Source of the DNA: a virus
Virus record (IMG/VR): IMGVR_UViG_3300045741_000089
Location: 1-38,779 of that record
Reading direction: 5' to 3' (one strand)
DNA: 38,779 bases
Under the pieces are notes generated by a model. That model saw only the letters and a list, made by a program, of their open reading frames with translations, was not told the DNA's origin and did no database searches. Shown in pieces: positions 273-28,697 of the stretch. The number at the start of each line of letters is the position of its first letter. Position 1 is the stretch's first letter. The position numbers and the translations under genes were made by a program.

Positions 273-552
273 GGGAACCCTCATCATGGCTACTTTTCAA
301 GAACTGCAAGCGTCGGCCGACGCGCTGGAAGCCAAGGCCGCTGCCGATCTGGCTCAGTCCACTACCGCTGTTCAACTGCTGCAGGCCCTTTCCGCGACCG
401 TTGCGGACCTGCGCAGCCAGCTTCCCGGCACCGCTGTGACGCAAGCCCAGCTTGACGCGCTGGCGGCTCAGATCGGCCGCATCACCGGCACGCTGACGAC
501 TTCGGACGCGCAGCTTGACGCCGGCATCGCGGCGGCTACTCCGGCGCCGTGA
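208..552 (+). CDS. Coiled-coil small phage protein, 114 aa
   Basis: The GTG start overlaps the stop of the upstream gene (GTGA), so translational coupling is likely. An internal ATG at 286 (protein starting MATFQELQ) is an alternative start giving 88 residues. The product is rich in Ala, Leu, Gln and Asp with heptad-like spacing, predicting a long alpha-helical coiled coil, and has no Cys. Similar MATxxELQ helical proteins occur near fibre and lysis genes of many phages. It probably has a structural or accessory role; no enzymatic motif is present. Confidence 0.7.
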   Translation: MTTQLDRIESSLASLHRKLTSWGTLIMATFQELQASADALEAKAAADLAQSTTAVQLLQALSATVADLRSQLPGTAVTQAQLDALAAQIGRITGTLTTSDAQLDAGIAAATPAP

Positions 553-713
553 TAGACCACAGCCTGATCCGTCAGCAGGCGCTGCGCAACCGGCAGCGGA
601 TGGATCAGGCTCCAAATCTGGAGCCCATTGACTTCATCCGCCAAGAGTTAGCGGAAGAGGCCAAGAAAGCCCGGGAACTGGCAGAGGCTTACGCCAAAAG
701 CAAAGACGCCTAA
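549..713 (+). CDS. Small charged helical protein, 54 aa; stop lies in attC1
   Basis: The GTG at 549 overlaps the stop of the preceding gene (GTGA). The protein starts VIDHSLIRQQALRNRQRMD and ends with an Ala/Glu/Lys helix (EEAKKARELAEAYAKSKDA). The TAA stop at 711-713 lies inside the GCCTAAC R'' box of attC1, the usual arrangement of an integron cassette gene with its recombination site. No family recognised. It is the last gene of the rightward unit when the genome is read as a circle. Confidence 0.65.
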   Translation: MIDHSLIRQQALRNRQRMDQAPNLEPIDFIRQELAEEAKKARELAEAYAKSKDA

Positions 714-763
714 CGGCAGTTCAAGCGGACGCCTTTCAGTCGCCGCTTAACTTTGGGTTAGCC
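708..763 (+). other. attC: attC1: integron-type cassette recombination site (59-base element)
   Basis: R'' is GCCTAAC (708-714), matching RYYYAAC. R' is GTTAGCC (757-763), matching GTTRRRY except for one base. Between them is an imperfect hairpin: TT pairs AA (720-721 with 749-750), AAGCGG pairs CCGCTT (723-728 with 743-748), and CG pairs CG (730-731 with 741-742), with loop 732-740. C722 and A729 are unpaired in the top strand, which gives extrahelical G and T in the bottom strand. These set strand choice in known attC sites. Total length is 56 bp, within the usual range. Confidence 0.8.
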
Positions 764-928
764 CGCTCTCTCACTTCGGGCTCTCTTGCGTGCCAGCTTC
801 TCGGCGTACTCCGTCAGCGCAGGCGCATCGGCAGGGTGAACCCAGCGCTTCCACTGCACGCGGCCTGCGGATAGTTCGCGGGCTTTGCGCTCGGCCTGGC
901 GCTGGGCTGCGGTCTTGGCAGTGGTCAT
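758..928 (-). CDS. Small basic protein, 56 aa; paralogue of 13361-13555
   Basis: Begins MTTAKTAAQRQAERKAREL and contains RVQWKRWVHPADAPAL. It matches the protein at 13361-13555 along its first 40 or so residues (shared MT-AKT-AQRQA-KAR-L-AG-V-WVH-D--AL pattern), so the phage carries two copies of this family, one inside the cassette-like segment. Its TAA stop uses the TTA of the attC1 R' box. The start codon overlaps the stop of the upstream gene (ATGA). The charged helix followed by a WVH segment could suit DNA or protein binding; function unknown. Confidence 0.7.
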   Translation of the reverse strand: MTTAKTAAQRQAERKARELSAGRVQWKRWVHPADAPALTEYAEKLARKRARSERAG

Positions 929-1068
929 CGCAATGTCAGCCTAAGCCAAGCGGCCCACGCGCTGCGCACATCTGGCCCCCAAGCAGTCCACCAGCCGCGA
1001 GAAACGGCCCAGCCCCATTGCAGGACTGCGCCGTTACACCTTTGAACTCTGCGCAGCGTCGGTTTCAC
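925..1068 (-). CDS. Trp/Arg-rich 47-aa peptide
   Basis: GTG start overlapping the upstream stop (GTGA), and stop overlapping the downstream start (ATGA), so it is coupled on both sides in the three-gene reverse operon. The product is unusually rich in Trp (about eight in 47 residues) and Arg, with segments such as GWAVSRGWWTAWGPDVRS. No signal peptide or clear hydrophobic segment. No family recognised. The tight overlap on both sides is the main evidence that it is real. Confidence 0.55.
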   Translation of the reverse strand: MKPTLRRVQRCNGAVLQWGWAVSRGWWTAWGPDVRSAWAAWLRLTLR

Positions 1069-1298
1069 ACAGCCACCTTGTAGCCGTTTGCGCGCAGTTG
1101 CTTGGCAATGCTCGGGGCCACTTCGGCGCGCTCGCCGCCAAACTCGGCGCGAACCATCTTCAGGCCAGTCGGGTAAACCACGCTCGTGAAGCTCGCGCCT
1201 TTGGCGGCCAGGCGGCAGAAATGCATTGCCGCTTCTTTGTTCCAGCGGGCGATTGTGAAGGCGACTTCGCGGCGGGTCGTAATGCTCAGGTTGCTCAT
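1065..1298 (-). CDS. Hypothetical 77-aa protein, first gene of the cassette operon
   Basis: The ATG is preceded by a GGAG ribosome site about 7 bases away, and by a good promoter at 1334-1362. The protein begins MSNLSITTRREVAFTIARWN and ends ANGYKVAV, a compact mixed alpha/beta sequence without signal peptide or metal-binding motif. I do not recognise it. The gene before it in the twin promoter arrangement (12592-12813) is the same size but shows no clear sequence match. Confidence 0.7.
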   Translation of the reverse strand: MSNLSITTRREVAFTIARWNKEAAMHFCRLAAKGASFTSVVYPTGLKMVRAEFGGERAEVAPSIAKQLRANGYKVAV

Positions 1299-1333
1299 GT
1301 TTTTTGCTCCGGGTTGCGTGTTGCGATGAATGA

Positions 1334-1362
1334 ATATTAGTCCACCGTGAGCACTCACGCAA
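1334..1362 (-). promoter_or_regulatory. Sigma70-type promoter of the cassette operon (twin of 12538-12566)
   Basis: On the reverse strand: -35 TTGCGT (1362-1357), a 17-base spacer, and -10 TAATAT (1339-1334). The spacer and about 25 bases upstream are nearly identical to the promoter at 12538-12566, although spacers are normally free to vary. In this copy the spacer region holds a GTGAG-TG-CTCAC inverted repeat, a candidate operator. Confidence 0.7.
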
Positions 1363-1404
1363 GCACTATTTTCACTGTTACATCTGCGCGCTTCGGACAC
1401 GGCG

Positions 1405-1462
1405 GGCTAACCCGCAATTCAAGCGGACTGCCTACGGCAGCCGCTTAATTGCAACGTTAAAC
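1405..1462 (+). other. attC: attC2: integron-type cassette recombination site
   Basis: R'' GGCTAAC (1405-1411) deviates from RYYYAAC by one base; R' GTTAAAC (1456-1462) matches GTTRRRY exactly. The arms pair almost perfectly: GCAATT with AATTGC (1414-1419 with 1447-1452), AAGCGG with CCGCTT (1421-1426 with 1441-1446), and CTGCC with GGCAG (1428-1432 with 1436-1440), leaving a TAC loop. C1420 and A1427 are extrahelical, the same bases at the same spacing as in attC1. Length 58 bp. It lies between the cassette promoter and the ninB stop, which falls in R'. Confidence 0.82.
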
Positions 1463-1843
1463 CTCTTCCTCCGCCACAAATGCCTGCGCATACTCAATCA
1501 AGCTGCTCATGCGCGCCTTGCTCATCCTGGCGGTGCTCTCGCGGATGTTCAGGAACTCGCCTTCCAGCCCTAGCACCATCTCTGCGCCTTGCTTTGTCGC
1601 TACTGAGTGGCCGCTGATTAGCAGCACCTTCCACTCCTCCAGCGACCTACGCTTACCGGCCCACTGCCGGTCAGACTTCGCAAGATCGCGGCACAGGGCG
1701 TGGAACTTGGCGTTCTGCTCACTATTCCTGCGCGGCTTTTGGAAGATGACCTCGCATCCTTCGGGCGCCTCATGCTCTGCATAATCGCAAGCCCGCTGCC
1801 GAGCCTGCGCGTGCGAAAACACGAAGTGGCGAAGGATGCTCAT
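1457..1843 (-). CDS. ninB: NinB-family recombination protein
   Basis: 128 residues, the usual length of NinB (lambda Orf), which aids phage recombination by interacting with single-stranded DNA and SSB. Family hallmarks are the RRNSEQNAKFHALCRDLAKS segment, WAGKRRSLEEWKVLLISGH, the LEGEFLNIRESTARMS stretch and a final SLIEYAQAF helix. It follows the Ref-like and ERF-like genes with overlapping stop/start codons, forming a recombination module. Its TAA lies in the attC2 R' box, so recombination there would cut directly behind the coding sequence. Confidence 0.9.
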   Translation of the reverse strand: MSILRHFVFSHAQARQRACDYAEHEAPEGCEVIFQKPRRNSEQNAKFHALCRDLAKSDRQWAGKRRSLEEWKVLLISGHSVATKQGAEMVLGLEGEFLNIRESTARMSKARMSSLIEYAQAFVAEEEV

Positions 1844-9950: not shown

Positions 9951-10676
9951 ATGGCTGAGAAAGTAGTGATCGGGAGCGCGGAACTGTGGCACGGCGACTG
10001 CTTGGAGATACTGCCGCAGTTGCCCCGGCTTGGCGCCGTGATAACTGACCCACCCTACGGCATAAACACCAAGAGCGACGGCAGCGGCAAGCTGAGCCCA
10101 TGGGGCGATTTGGTGAACTCGGCGCATTGGTACGCGGCATGGATGCGTGAAGCGCGCGGCCGGCTTGCCCAGGATGGCGCGTTGTGGACCTGCCTAAACT
10201 GGCGTTCGATGGTAACGTTTCAGAAGGCCGCATGCGACCTGGGCTGGCCGATTGACTCGCTGATGGTGTGGGACAAAAAGTGGATTGGCCCAGGCGGTAC
10301 GCGTGGCCTGCGCCCGAGCTATGAGCTTGTGGCGTTGTTCGGCATGCCGAGCTTTGCCATCAAGGACCGTGGGCTGCCAGATGTGCAGCCGTTCCCTGTG
10401 GGTTCGTACAAGGCGACAGGGCACCCTGCCGAGAAGCCGGTGGCGCTGCTTGACTTCTTGGTGAAGCACACGCCCGGCGACCTGATTTGCGACCCGTTCA
10501 TGGGCAGCGGAACAACGGCGGTTGCTTGCGCTGCGGCCGGGCGGAGATTCATCGGCATTGAGATGGACCGCCAGTGGTTCGACCTGACGTGCGAGCGCAT
10601 CAGCCGCGCCCAGGCTCAGGGTGCGCTACTACCGGCCGAGGAACCGATACAGCCAGTGCAGGGCGAGATTCTGTGA
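9951..10676 (+). CDS. Beta-class DNA (N6-adenine or N4-cytosine) methyltransferase
   Basis: 241 residues, complete. The catalytic DPPYG is at residues 33-37, a GHPAEKP segment near 157-163, and the SAM-binding DPFMGSGTT at 181-189. Catalytic motif before the SAM motif is the permuted beta order. It transfers a methyl group from SAM to an exocyclic amino group of A or C in DNA. No cognate restriction enzyme is adjacent, so protection of phage DNA from host restriction, or regulation by methylation, are likely. Target sequence unknown. Confidence 0.88.
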   Translation: MAEKVVIGSAELWHGDCLEILPQLPRLGAVITDPPYGINTKSDGSGKLSPWGDLVNSAHWYAAWMREARGRLAQDGALWTCLNWRSMVTFQKAACDLGWPIDSLMVWDKKWIGPGGTRGLRPSYELVALFGMPSFAIKDRGLPDVQPFPVGSYKATGHPAEKPVALLDFLVKHTPGDLICDPFMGSGTTAVACAAAGRRFIGIEMDRQWFDLTCERISRAQAQGALLPAEEPIQPVQGEIL

Positions 10677-11635: not shown

Positions 11636-12188
11636 GGACTACGCAAGAGTGATCGCCGCGCTTCCCGGTACCGGGGCTGAGGTAGCAGAGAGAAGCGGTC
11701 TTACCGAGTGGGGAGCGAAGATGCTCCTGAGGCAGTTCTGGGATCTTCGGATGGTTCACCCTGGCGGGGTGACTGAAACCGGCCCGCGCGCGGCCCACAC
11801 GGCAGTCTGGCAGATAGGAGACGGTGAACGCGCTCCAGGACTGCGGGTGAAGAAGCACAAGCCAAAGCTCAATCACTATTCATTCGCCGTGCTATGGCGG
11901 TGTCTAGAGGACGGCGCGACGAAGACCGAGGCCATCGAGGCATCCGGGCTCAATCACAACACGGTCCGCCGGACGCTGGAAGCGCTGCATACGGGCGGCG
12001 CTATCCGGGTGTCAGCGTGGGAGAAGGACAGTATGGGCCGCAGCGTGATACCCGTATGGATTGCTGGCGCCGGCAAAGACGCCAAGAAGCCGAAGCCGAA
12101 AAGCGCAAACGAGAGCGAGCGCTGGCGACGGACTTACGAGCGCAGGCAGATTCATCTGGTGACGATGCTGGCGCAGGCTGGAGCTTAA
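11616..12188 (+). CDS. Two-domain winged-helix protein, 190 aa; stop lies in attC3
   Basis: Two helix-turn-helix-like units can be read: residues about 17-50 (TGAEVAERSGLTEWGAKMLL) and 95-130 (TKTEAIEASGLNHNTVRRTL), each followed by a wing-like segment. The C-terminus is basic (KKPKPKSANESERWRRTYER). Tandem winged helices suggest DNA binding, possibly as a replication initiator or regulator. The TAA stop (12186-12188) is inside the R'' box of attC3. Confidence 0.7.
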   Translation: MPSGSFEDYARVIAALPGTGAEVAERSGLTEWGAKMLLRQFWDLRMVHPGGVTETGPRAAHTAVWQIGDGERAPGLRVKKHKPKLNHYSFAVLWRCLEDGATKTEAIEASGLNHNTVRRTLEALHTGGAIRVSAWEKDSMGRSVIPVWIAGAGKDAKKPKPKSANESERWRRTYERRQIHLVTMLAQAGA

Positions 12189-12236
12189 CCAAGAATTGAC
12201 GCGCACCGAAGGTGTCGCGTCCAATGGACGTTAGGC
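12183..12236. other. attC: attC3: third attC-like site
   Basis: R'' GCTTAAC (12183-12189) and R' GTTAGGC (12230-12236) both match consensus. The stem pairs ATTG with CAAT, ACGCG with CGCGT, and CACC with GGTG around a GAA loop. T12215 and C12221 are unpaired on the right arm, so this site would be functionally oriented opposite to attC1 and attC2. Length 54 bp. The extrahelical pair is T and C where G and T are usual, so it is less typical. Confidence 0.62.
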
Positions 12237-12237
12237 C

Positions 12238-12534
12238 ATGAGAACCGCAGCCCGAGCCGACGACAACCAAGCCGAGATCGTGGAAGCGCTGCGGGCTGAA
12301 GGCTGCTACGTGGTCAACATCCGCTGGCCTGTTGACCTACTGGTGGGCGTTCCAAGTGCAGGCTGGCTTGCCGTAGAGGTAAAAGACGGCTCAAAGCCCA
12401 CCAGCGCCCGCAAGCTGACCGAAGTCCAGCTTGCGTTTATCGGCAGCGCTCCGCCAGGCTGTCCGACTGCGGTGGTGACGGATGTGGAATCGGCGCTAAG
12501 GGCTGTGCGGGCAATGTGTAACAGTGCAAAATAG
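12238..12534 (+). CDS. PD-(D/E)XK-type nuclease, 98 aa
   Basis: Starts RTAARADDNQAEIVEALRAE (after Met). It has VDLLVG (catalytic Asp) and AVEVKDGSKP (Glu-x-Lys), the core of a small restriction-fold nuclease of the VRR-NUC/resolvase-like kind, then SARKLTEVQLAFI. Small proteins of this layout are frequent in phages. It begins immediately after attC3 and lies just upstream of the twin promoter. Substrate unknown; junction or flap processing is possible. Confidence 0.75.
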   Translation: MRTAARADDNQAEIVEALRAEGCYVVNIRWPVDLLVGVPSAGWLAVEVKDGSKPTSARKLTEVQLAFIGSAPPGCPTAVVTDVESALRAVRAMCNSAK

Positions 12535-12537
12535 GGC

Positions 12538-12566
12538 TTGCGTGAGCGCTAGCGGTGGACTATAGT
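12538..12566 (+). promoter_or_regulatory. Sigma70-type promoter (twin of 1334-1362)
   Basis: -35 TTGCGT (12538-12543), 17-base spacer, -10 TATAGT (12561-12566). The spacer (12544-12560) and the preceding TAACAGTG-rich stretch are nearly identical to the cassette promoter on the other strand. Conservation inside a spacer suggests a bound regulator. Drives 12592-13962. Confidence 0.72.
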
Positions 12567-12591
12567 TCAGTCATCAACACCGGAGCACGAC

Positions 12592-12813
12592 ATGGCAACC
12601 TTCCAGCAAATCCAGACCGCAACGATGGCCGCAAGGCGCGCGACTGGCATGCCCGGGATCGGGACGCAGGTGAATGCGGGCCGGTTCCAAGTGGTGAATG
12701 TTTCCTACGGCAAGCGCGGCAAGTCTGACGTGCTGGCGCTGTCCGACTGGATCAGCGTTGACGCGGCCATCGAAGTGCTGCGCCAGATCGAAGCCGACAA
12801 GGGTTGGCACTAA
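12592..12813 (+). CDS. Hypothetical 73-aa protein
   Basis: CGGAG precedes the ATG and the twin promoter precedes that. Begins MATFQQIQTATMAARRATGM and ends VDAAIEVLRQIEADKGWH. It ends one base before the cytosine-methyltransferase-like start. Function unknown; it occupies the same position behind the conserved promoter as the 77-aa gene does in the cassette. Confidence 0.72.
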   Translation: MATFQQIQTATMAARRATGMPGIGTQVNAGRFQVVNVSYGKRGKSDVLALSDWISVDAAIEVLRQIEADKGWH

Positions 12814-16027: not shown

Positions 16028-18481
16028 ATGGCAAAAGGGCTCACGCAGGACGAACTGCTAGCGCTGACCGATCTGGAGATTCGGAACGCGGTAGGCTATT
16101 CCGGCGGCAAGATGTCCGAAATGCGCCGGAAGGCCGAGTATTACTACCTTGGGCTTCCGAAGGGTGATCTGGCTCCCCCCGAGGTGGAGGGACGGTCATC
16201 GGTAGTCGATACCTACGTTCGCAACACCATCGAGGCCATGTTGCCTCAGCTCATGGTTCGCTTCACGGGCTCCGATACCGTGGTGGAATTCGAGCCAACG
16301 AAGCCGGGCGACGAACAAAAGGCCAAGCAGTGCACCGACTACCTGAATTACCTCTTCTGGAAGCAGAACCGTGGTCACATGATCGCTGAAACCTGGATGC
16401 GCGACGCGCTGCTTCAGAAGAACGGGATTCTCAAAGTCTGGTGGGATACTCGAACCGAAGAGACGAAAGAGGAATACAAGGCTCTTACTGAGGTTGAACT
16501 CGCCCAGTTGATGGATGATGAGGAAATCGAGGTAACCGCCAAGACATCCTATACCGACGAGGAAGACGCCGAGCAGCGCAAGGAGGCCATGGCGCATCTT
16601 GGACCGCAGATGCAGCAGGCCATGCAAGCCGCGCAGCAGGGCAACAAGCAAGCCGCTGCCGCTGCCGCGCAGATCGCAATGCAGATCAAGGCCATCAACG
16701 ACAAACCGCCGGTCATGCTGTACGACGTGACGGCCGTTCGCTCGAAGAAGGGTGGGAAACTCTCCCTCGAAAACGTGCCACCCGAGGAATTCCTCATCAG
16801 CCGCAAGGCAAAGGACATCCGCACGTCGCCGTTTTGTGCCCATCGGGTCGCTCGCACGATCAGCGACCTGAAGTCGATGGGTTACAAGAATATCGACACC
16901 GTTTCCGGTGACGCGGACGGCACGAACATGAACCTTGAGCGCATCGAGCGCTTGAGCTTCGATGACGAGTTGGCCTACCTGAACGTAGATACCCCGAGCG
17001 GTGACGAATCGCAGCGCATGGTGTGGGTTGTCGAGTGCTACATCCGCTGCGACTGGGACGGCGACGGCATCAGTGAACTTCGCAAGGTCACCCGGTGCGG
17101 CAATACCGTCCTCGATAACGAAGAGGTAGACCTAGCCCCATTCGTTGACATCTGCTGCATCCGTCAACCTCATAAGTTCGCCGGGCTTTCCATCGCTGAC
17201 CTCGGCATGGAAACGCAGAAGATCAAGACGGGCCTTCTGCGCTCGGTGATCGACAACCAGCACCTGCAAGTCAATGGCCGTTACTTTGCGGTCGAGGATC
17301 AGGTGAACCTTGACGACCTGCTGACATCCCGCCCGGGTGGGGTGGTGCGGATCAAGAACCCCGGCGCCGTCGGAAGGCTCGATCAGGCCGCCTCCGACAT
17401 GCAGGGCACGATGGGTCTGCTGGAGTATGTCGAGGGATTCGGTGAATCCGCTACCGGCTGGACCCGCTACAGCCAAGGGAACTCCGCCGGCAAGCTCGGT
17501 CAGTCCACGGCGACGGGCATGGACATCATCGCGAACAAGGACGACATGCGTGTCGACCTGATCGCGCGCAACTTCGCAGAAGGGTTCGTCGAACTCTTCC
17601 GTCAGATGCTAAAGCTCGTTTGTCAGCACCAAGACAAAGAGCGCCAGATCCGCCTGAATGGTCAGTGGGTCGATATGGACCCGCGAGAGTGGAAGAATCA
17701 GTTTGACGTGAGCATCAATGTCGGGCTCGGCGTCGGCTCGAAGCAGCAGCAATTGCAGCAATTGATGGCGATCATCATGCAGCAGGAAAAGGTCCACGCC
17801 ATCGGGGCCGCGTCGCCCGAGAATATCTACCAATCGAGCGTGGAACTCACCAAGCTGGCCGGATTCAAGTCGCCGGATCGCTTCTTCTCCGATCCTGCCA
17901 AGGCGCCCCCGCAACCGCCGAAGCCTGACCCGCTCATGGTGAAGGGCCAGATCGACGTGCAAGTCGAGCAGGCGAAGGGCCAAGTCGCCGCGCAACTCAA
18001 GCAACTGGATGTGCAGGCCACGCAGCAAATCGAGGCGCTGAAAGCGAAGTACAAGCAGGAAACCGACCTTGCGGCGCAGCAATTCCAGCAAGCTCAAGCA
18101 GAGGCTCAAATGCAGATGCAGGCCCGGCTGAAAGAGCTGGAAGCATCCATGCAGGACGCCCGCGAACGGGACCGCATGTCGCAAGAGGCAGCGCTCGAAC
18201 AATTGCGCATTCAGAATGAGCAGTGGGCCAAGCAACTGGACAGCAATACCCGGATCGCAGTCGCCGAAATTCAGGCCAATGCTGCCGGACAGGCCGCGAC
18301 CGTAGACGCGCAGGCTCAAGTCGCCAGCGCTCAGGCTGCTTCTGCAAAGGTTATGGGCGGCGACACCAAGGCCGACGGAATGGCGCAGGCCATTGCTACT
18401 TTGTCGCTGATGGTCGAGAAACTTTCACAACCCAAACAAGTGATTCGCGGCCCTGATGGGCGAATTGTCGGAGTCCAATAA
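16028..18481 (+). CDS. Portal protein, 817 aa
   Basis: Begins MAKGLTQDELLALTDLEIRN. It has the portal core: AEYYYLGLPKG, SSVVDTYVRNTIEAMLP, and the KIKTGLLRSVIDNQHLQVNG wing region, then the QGNSAGKLGQSTATGMD segment. The C-terminal 250 residues form a very long Gln/Ala-rich coiled coil (QQFQQAQAEAQMQMQARLKE and neighbours), like the barrel of P22-type portals. Twelve copies form the DNA channel and connect head and tail. The next gene overlaps it by one base. Confidence 0.9.
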   Translation: MAKGLTQDELLALTDLEIRNAVGYSGGKMSEMRRKAEYYYLGLPKGDLAPPEVEGRSSVVDTYVRNTIEAMLPQLMVRFTGSDTVVEFEPTKPGDEQKAKQCTDYLNYLFWKQNRGHMIAETWMRDALLQKNGILKVWWDTRTEETKEEYKALTEVELAQLMDDEEIEVTAKTSYTDEEDAEQRKEAMAHLGPQMQQAMQAAQQGNKQAAAAAAQIAMQIKAINDKPPVMLYDVTAVRSKKGGKLSLENVPPEEFLISRKAKDIRTSPFCAHRVARTISDLKSMGYKNIDTVSGDADGTNMNLERIERLSFDDELAYLNVDTPSGDESQRMVWVVECYIRCDWDGDGISELRKVTRCGNTVLDNEEVDLAPFVDICCIRQPHKFAGLSIADLGMETQKIKTGLLRSVIDNQHLQVNGRYFAVEDQVNLDDLLTSRPGGVVRIKNPGAVGRLDQAASDMQGTMGLLEYVEGFGESATGWTRYSQGNSAGKLGQSTATGMDIIANKDDMRVDLIARNFAEGFVELFRQMLKLVCQHQDKERQIRLNGQWVDMDPREWKNQFDVSINVGLGVGSKQQQLQQLMAIIMQQEKVHAIGAASPENIYQSSVELTKLAGFKSPDRFFSDPAKAPPQPPKPDPLMVKGQIDVQVEQAKGQVAAQLKQLDVQATQQIEALKAKYKQETDLAAQQFQQAQAEAQMQMQARLKELEASMQDARERDRMSQEAALEQLRIQNEQWAKQLDSNTRIAVAEIQANAAGQAATVDAQAQVASAQAASAKVMGGDTKADGMAQAIATLSLMVEKLSQPKQVIRGPDGRIVGVQ

Positions 18482-27972: not shown

Positions 27973-28697
27973 TGTTGATCGAGTCGCCGGTCTGGAAACT
28001 TCAGCGGGCGCTGTCTCTCATGCCCGCCGTGGATCTTCCGACCGAGCATTTCTTTGCCGATGGCATGTATTGCCGTTCCGTCTTCCGGGCGGCGGGCGTC
28101 GTGATCGTCGGCAAGGTGCACCGCAAAGAGCACCTCTACATCGTGGCTCGAGGGCTTGTCAGGGTGACGACGGACGACGGGGTGCGGGATGTGCCTGCCG
28201 GATCGGTGATCGTTTCACGGCCCGGGACAAAGCGCGCCGTCTTGGCGATTCAAGACTCGGTGTGCATGACCGTGCACCGGACGGACAAAACTGACCTATC
28301 GGAGATCGAGCGCGAGCTTCTGGAAGAGGATGACTCTGCGGTCATGGATTCCGAAAACCGGGTGAAATTCGACGTGCCGGCTTTCCGGGAACTGACAGCG
28401 AGGGTCATCAAGGCTGAAAAGCCGGGCTTTTGGTCCGATTGGACCGAGGCCGAGCGGGCGCTTTACACCTCGGGCGATTGGCGGGCTTTTTCCACCTCTC
28501 GCGGGTACACTTCCGCAGAAATTGACGATTACGGGCGCTGGCTGGATTCCATCGCTGAAGCAAAGAATAAAGGCGTCAACCCGTATCTGTTCATCGGCGA
28601 TCTGGCGTTACCTGCTGCTGCCAAGAATATGGCGCTGGACACGAAAGGCGAAATCATGAAGTCATCGCATCTCCCGCACGAATCGAGGCAATCATGA
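27972..28697 (+). CDS. Cupin-domain virion protein, 241 aa
   Basis: Residues about 35-110 have VHRKEHLYIVARGLVRVTTD, then DVPAGSVIVSRPGTKRAVLA, a cupin-type barrel with GxPxxVxSxxGTKR wording, followed by MTVHRTDKTDLSEIERELLE. The C-terminal half is helical with FSTSRGYTSAEIDDYGRWLD. Related cupin-like proteins occur in other podovirus structural modules. Metal-binding residues look partly absent, so a structural role is more likely than catalysis. Confidence 0.72.
   Translation: MLIESPVWKLQRALSLMPAVDLPTEHFFADGMYCRSVFRAAGVVIVGKVHRKEHLYIVARGLVRVTTDDGVRDVPAGSVIVSRPGTKRAVLAIQDSVCMTVHRTDKTDLSEIERELLEEDDSAVMDSENRVKFDVPAFRELTARVIKAEKPGFWSDWTEAERALYTSGDWRAFSTSRGYTSAEIDDYGRWLDSIAEAKNKGVNPYLFIGDLALPAAAKNMALDTKGEIMKSSHLPHESRQS

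Follow-up and report, generated by a model that had tools for sequence, protein, structure and literature searches.

The window, by which we mean the whole stretch of DNA analyzed, is a viral record, 38,779 bp long, with genes for terminase, portal, scaffold, major head and tail. At its left end lie two hairpins that an earlier note had described as integron attC sites, which raises the question whether these are genuine recombination sites and whether the DNA enclosed by them is a mobile cassette of the phage.

attC sites at a junction of phage gene blocks

The hairpins are located where plus-strand genes, ending at position 713, meet the minus-strand block at the left end of the window, which consists of NinB, a phrog_1588 gene and an ERF annealase. 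The last of the plus-strand ORFs (549 to 713) overlaps the stop of the preceding ORF. No tRNA genes were found in the window, a profile search of the window gave no match to the PF00589 recombinases, and the record, which may be incomplete, contained no match to the integron integrase model TIGR02249. Among the nearest phage records in INPHARED nothing usefully similar to the attC region was detected. The early region of the window includes a phrog_67 DNA methyltransferase gene (9951 to 10676). The features at and around the sites are the following, where R1 is the covariance model described below.

549 to 713, plus strand: last gene on the late-gene side (gene call), with its TAA stop inside R'' of attC1; boundary of the array
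708 to 763, plus strand: attC1, with R'' at 708 to 714, R' at 757 to 763 and an inferred crossover between 757 and 758 (model R1 and structure)
1405 to 1462, plus strand: attC2, with R'' at 1405 to 1411, R' at 1456 to 1462 and an inferred crossover between 1456 and 1457 (model R1 and structure)
1457 to 1843, minus strand: NinB gene beyond attC2 (PF05772, E 1.4e-33; phrog_72), with its stop inside R' of attC2
12183 to 12236, minus strand: attC3 (structure finder alone), directly before the ORF at 12238 to 12534 and opposite in orientation to attC1 and attC2

The consensus boxes of attC sites are RYYYAAC for R'' and GTTRRRY for R', and the extrahelical bases and stem features are what IntI uses for choosing the bottom strand. 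The R' consensus is also given in PMC9892861. In attC2, R'' agrees with the consensus at 6/7 positions and R' (GTTAAAC) at 7/7, and the stem comprises 17 pairs. On the top strand, its 5' arm carries two extrahelical bases exactly six pairs apart, which correspond to T and G on the bottom strand. An identical extrahelical pattern was present in attC1. The anatomy given in the earlier note, a 17-bp imperfect stem with an exact GTTAAAC in attC2 and two unpaired bases six pairs apart shared with an attC1 of the same orientation, is thus reproduced here, the latter part also by the structure finder.

This finder, which looks for both R boxes together with an imperfect stem that has, on one of its arms, two unpaired bases at a spacing of six pairs, reported three structures in the real window (708-763, 1405-1462 and 12183-12236) as compared to three in 300 dinucleotide-preserving shuffles of it, none of which contained two or more. 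In 80 other phage loci, selected by their NinB gene and amounting to 688,580 bp, it reported none. The claim that such a pair is very unlikely to arise by chance therefore held against shuffled as well as unrelated phage sequence. Model R1 was built from 38 sites, all from bacterial contigs, that have the core of attC1 and attC2 in common; the model is therefore narrow, and E-values from it are approximate. It scored attC2 at 52.4 bits (E 3.9e-11) and attC1 at 51.2 bits (E 8.3e-11), in agreement with the earlier assignment of both hairpins to attC, and did not report attC3 even at E 10. Its only two matches in the 688,580 bp of phage loci, located near NinB on the strand opposite to it in L028 (6158-6220) and L030 (4677-4734), are probably real attCs. 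Folded as single-stranded DNA, the bottom strand of attC2 reached -17.3 kcal/mol (z -5.66), with 0/200 shuffles as good; an Rfam scan matched no family. A chance hairpin that happens to resemble attC is ruled out by the shuffles, the model score and the folding z-score, leaving it a practically negligible probability, and we conclude that attC1 and attC2 are integron attC sites.

In the loci compared, the stem was most similar to other phage sites: one in L005 (94% over 53 bp) and one in L007, with which attC2 aligned at 75% over 159 alignment columns, leader included. A search of INPHARED with the attC2 sequence gave nothing beyond one 26-bp chance match.

Since attC1 and attC2 lie within a few kb of each other and the record gave no match to an integron integrase, the locus has the makeup of a CALIN, a cluster of attC sites without integrase; a complete integron has intI and attI in cis, and the window contains no intI. 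Phage CALINs are known, for example from Tetrasphaera phage TJE1, and IntI1 has been shown to use the bottom strands of phage attCs (PMC9892861). Like the window, TJE1 is a tailed phage with integron-type attC sites, short genes between them and no integrase in cis.

A complete cassette with reversed genes

The crossover points of the two sites delimit the first of the features listed here, which also include the ORF next to attC3.

758 to 1456, minus strand: cassette of 699 bp between the crossover points of attC1 and attC2, as defined by the sequence
758 to 928, minus strand: cassette gene 2, 56 aa (codon-based call), with a TAA stop that is the last triplet of the cassette
1065 to 1298, minus strand: cassette gene 1, 77 aa (codon-based call), reversed relative to attC2
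1334 to 1362, minus strand: promoter-like site predicted from sequence, with -35 TTGCGT at 1357 to 1362, a 17-bp spacer and -10 TAATAT at 1334 to 1339
12238 to 12534, plus strand: 98-aa nuclease-like ORF (tblastn to phage genes), directly after attC3 and opposite to it

In an integron the sequence after the G↓TT of one site (the arrow marking the cut) and the R'' of the next site were the two ends of one circle and hence match. In the window, GTTAGCCCGC (757-766) and GCGGGCTAAC (1402-1411) form a 10-bp perfect complement, which identifies 758-1456 as a complete cassette, the only one in the window. Since R'' of attC2 matches the R' of its neighbour and its own R' less well, the outer stem of attC2 looks imperfect. 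This 10-bp match had not been mentioned in the earlier note, nor had the reversed cassette genes or attC3.

In a canonical cassette the gene runs toward its own attC with its stop facing R''. Both genes of the cassette, 1065-1298 and 758-928, instead have their starts facing R''. The 77-aa protein has two viral relatives at 83% identity, neither of them near an attC, and ten other viral contigs encode relatives of the 56-aa protein (69-93%); neither protein matched Pfam, PHROG or NCBIfam or had relatives in INPHARED. A palindrome, GTGAGTGCTCAC (1347-1358), overlaps the predicted cassette promoter, and the cassette leader resembles the leaders of other phage cassettes as well as positions 12517-12580 of the window. 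The promoter-like region with its palindrome is thus present in two copies that are 83% identical, 1318-1382 and 12517-12580, the second of which precedes an ORF at 12592-12813, and the two may possibly form one phage regulon. The 98-aa ORF after attC3 gave tblastn matches to phage genes, some of them annotated as endonuclease, and has homologues in two attC-bearing contigs, G001 and G005; a pattern search of IMG/VR for its relatives returned none.

Reversed genes were the rule in other viral records. An IMG/VR pattern scan provided a first set of 24 stretches in other records carrying this attC type, and the codon-based caller placed the R''-side gene opposite to attC at 30/31 called places among 32 structural sites. 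When sites were defined by the model (111 sites in 25 viral records), the R''-side gene was opposite to attC at 96, in the same direction at 3 and uncalled at 12, while the R'-side gene was opposite at 92/94 called sites with 17 uncalled. These 111 sites comprise the 108/131 model matches with E <0.001 and the three sites of the window, added by hand; the 23 weaker matches, reverse-strand duplicates among them, were left out. The exception in the window is attC1, which faces the late-gene block and marks the edge of the array. In a second set, based on a different attC pattern, the gene was opposite to attC at 28 of 35 sites, in the same direction at 2 and uncalled at 5. This count covers the pattern sites of the set alone and not its 126 model matches; one of its loci, L284, sits in a record of the first set. 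Ten loci picked by the 56-aa protein instead of by attC contained attC in 9/10, with 43/44 matches opposite to the gene and the 44th a weak reverse duplicate. Among 132 bacterial sites of the first pattern, in contrast, the same caller found the R''-side gene in the same direction at 47, opposite at 12 and uncalled at 73.

A caller that takes the longest ORF was rejected as uninformative in the viral sets, phage genes being short and GC-rich: it gave 102 same and 20 opposite for the bacterial sites and no clear bias for viruses, with opposite-to-same counts of 14:11 and 13:10 in the two sets. The coding strand was therefore decided by homology. The ORFs opposite to attC (132, that is 134 minus two half ORFs truncated at the border of a piece) matched 66 PHROG and 18 Pfam families, compared to 0 and 2, respectively, for the antisense ORFs (125/132 after duplicate removal). 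As a positive control, all three sites of TJE1 were found, in canonical direction. In two further published phages the strict finder detected no site: P12002L (48 of 48.7 kb covered) and MW202573 (30 of 34.6 kb covered).

The reversed genes start mostly 18-36 nt from R'' or, as in the window, past a promoter-bearing leader of ~106 nt, and in 14/96 cases the start is inside the attC. Examples of the latter are G003 28123-28218 and G011 16666-16767, and several have a ribosome-binding-like sequence ahead of the start, in the loop. Phage-like reversed cassettes also occur in three bacterial contigs (L162 6023-6078, L115 4071-4485 and L206 5104-5161, from Rubrivivax and Rhodanobacter), which are perhaps proviruses. 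A 4.5-kb record listed as viral (L009) has 11 model-defined attC sites and no called gene and may be a bacterial integron fragment.

These counts bear on the explanation that the phage merely picked up a fragment of a host chromosomal integron, as in published Vibrio prophages, with nothing phage-specific about it. The attC sequences do resemble those of Rhodanobacter, Rubrivivax, Polaromonas and Nevskia, host integron fragments have been reported in phages before (PMC9892861), and the two exceptions of the second set, L260 and L282, fit such an origin. In both, gene direction is canonical and an IntI scoring above the cut-off is encoded close to a contig end of the record. They resemble host integrons located at the border of a provirus, possibly through border errors of provirus calling. 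A captured cassette, however, keeps its gene direction, and bacterial sites are mostly canonical (47 same to 12 opposite), which the array of the window is not. In addition, relatives of the cassette proteins were found in viral contigs, within a search of viral sequences, and the phage IntI group described below stands apart from 28 sampled bacterial IntIs. On balance we consider a captured host fragment improbable. It is instead very likely that attC2 is the site of a mobile phage cassette that is moved in trans by an integron integrase and belongs to a pool of cassettes with reversed genes.

Traces of cassette movement

The circle signature of the window is shared by related arrays. Across 75 pairs of adjacent viral sites, R'' matches the R' of its neighbour at 507/600 positions, as opposed to 370/600 for R'' versus its own R' and 357 after shuffling (sd 8.8, highest value 391 in 5000 shuffles). 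Such a match is compatible with a cut in either R' or R''. Breakpoints in relatives coincide with the crossover. Seven of the 11 copies of the 56-aa gene, including that of the window, end with TAA↓C, and the sequence changes there: mean pairwise identity drops from 0.81 in the 18 nt before this point to 0.31 in the 18 nt after it. Among the ten other contigs with this gene, the change falls exactly at the crossover in six, as in the window; 4/11 copies end away from any crossover. Single cassettes are also common to otherwise different contigs (G002/G018 and G003/G023), with ends 0-5 bp from the crossovers.

G001 and L273, about 90% alike over 4.6 kb, are distinguished by a block that lies between two sites. 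On the right this block ends exactly at a crossover, and its left breakpoint is inside an attC, not at R', so that some of the exchange may be homologous. The attC at 4601-4657 of L273 is chimeric, with a left half as in G001 and a right half of another type.

That left breakpoint, together with the ERF and NinB genes adjoining attC2, would fit a different role of the sites, namely as short repeats for homologous recombination by the phage and not as substrates of an integron integrase. A crossover in the attC core would spoil pairing within the stem, yet the stems are intact, and the pairing of R'' with the neighbour's R' is what a cut between L' and R' leaves behind; we regard this alternative as quite improbable. 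A further proposal is that the hairpins, sitting where operons converge, act as bidirectional terminators or as mRNA structures and have ceased to be recombination sites. Here attC1 ends the plus-strand genes and attC2 ends NinB, with stops in the R boxes, and attC sites are thought to hold weak terminators (PMC9892861). A terminator, however, needs neither extrahelical bases nor R boxes nor a match to its neighbour, and relatives show, by their breakpoints at the crossover, that cassettes have moved, which makes a purely terminating role very improbable.

No clean empty site was found among the NinB relatives, attC being present in L028 and L030 alone of the 80 loci. In L027 the gene order beyond NinB differs, as judged by eye.

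Under the interpretation that attC2 belongs to a mobile cassette, an integron integrase would bind the folded bottom strand of attC, cut it at G↓TT of R' and move the cassette as a circle. Because the record is without an integrase, the enzyme would act in trans, supplied either by the host or by a related or co-resident integrase-bearing phage. In phage cassettes the bottom strand is the coding strand and the TAA stop often sits at the crossover point itself, so that successive cassettes would line up head to tail as an operon and each insertion would extend a phage operon in this manner. Among the cargo of the arrays are Mom, Lar, DNA methyltransferases and an Acb2/Tad1 hairpin domain; this suggests a counter-defence role through which the cassettes may help against host defences, most cassette genes, including the two of the window, being without an assigned function.

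Integron integrases in related phages

In G008 an integron integrase is encoded beside the array. The C-terminal open frame of its gene (L240 2796-3876), in which a tandem duplication of about 19 bp causes a frameshift, scored 360 bits against TIGR02249 (cut-off 265). Its relatives are distributed over 23 viral loci, G008 included, and in most of the others the gene is a single long open frame. Three of the intI records contain tape-measure and tail genes, two of these also terminase. The record 3300044640_001880 carries both the integrase and a relative of the 56-aa cassette gene, thereby linking the window to integrase-bearing phages.

The 21/23 intI loci scanned (L315 and L316 were left out) gave 37 attC matches, every one of them on the other strand from intI. 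Where loci were read in detail, the attC sites lie before intI, which is the usual geometry, and the genes run with intI; in the related viral contigs intI directly follows reversed cassettes. Gene directions, read in 17 loci covering 35 of the 37 sites, placed the R''-side gene opposite to attC at 34/35. An element consisting of GCCTAAC, AATTCGACCGC and GCGGCGTAACAC, in this order, precedes intI in most loci and is a candidate attI.

In an unrooted tree of 28 bacterial and 14 phage IntIs, the phage sequences formed one side of a branch with support of 97/95; in the tree with 18, likewise unrooted, the phage branch was supported at 99/99. The bacterial rows L347-L350, which are long or partial, were left out of the trees. 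Among 300 genomes of the order of G047, 113 had a match at E <1e-60, the best of them 61% identical.

The reverse integron of Treponema denticola has its integrase turned round and canonical cassettes. As described for that integron (PMC4909258), the integrase gene of the phage loci is co-directional with the cassette genes. The phage loci differ from the Treponema type in that attC keeps its canonical geometry to intI and it is the genes that are turned round, as the 34/35 sites with an opposite R''-side gene indicate. Complete integrons with intI and an attC array are known from the temperate phages Vibrio anguillarum p16 and Shewanella M16-3 (PMC9892861 Table 1), which the related intI phages resemble in this arrangement and from which they differ by reversed gene direction. 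Moreover, the Vibrio phage integron was described as a subset of the host integron (PMC9892861), whereas the phage IntI group is separate from the 28 bacterial sequences. TJE1, with three attCs canonical to its genes, likewise differs from the window and many related records, in which the genes are reversed. Vibrio superintegrons contain single cassettes that have, like that of the window, their own promoter (predicted in our case) or antisense transcription; those are gene-less and part of bacterial arrays (PMC11014356), whereas whole phage arrays have genes opposite to attC here. Phage CALINs and phage integrons are accordingly already known; for reversed phage cassettes and a phage IntI group we found no report in the literature searched (open-licence articles, preprints excluded), and the main text of PMC9892861 contains no word beginning with "reverse" or "opposite". 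Earlier reports may exist elsewhere.

Integrons have so far been seen as bacterial devices, pieces of which phages sometimes carry off. We think it likely that tailed phages have an integron lineage of their own, comprising the IntI group, the conserved attI-like site, reversed cassettes and an operon ended by intI, and that integrase-bearing and integrase-less phages have in common one pool of cassettes, rich in counter-defence genes and apart from that of bacteria. Phage and bacterial cassettes would be kept apart because each is antisense in the other's array, and the reversed direction thus predicts which cassettes pass between phage and bacterial arrays and stay expressed. If this is true, the phage-adapted integron with reversed cassettes is a means to gather and swap small counter-defence genes, and its arrays hold a large unread catalogue of them.

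A second recombinase gene is located at 4178-5386 of L240, the locus of the G008 integrase, and suggests that this record is a provirus.
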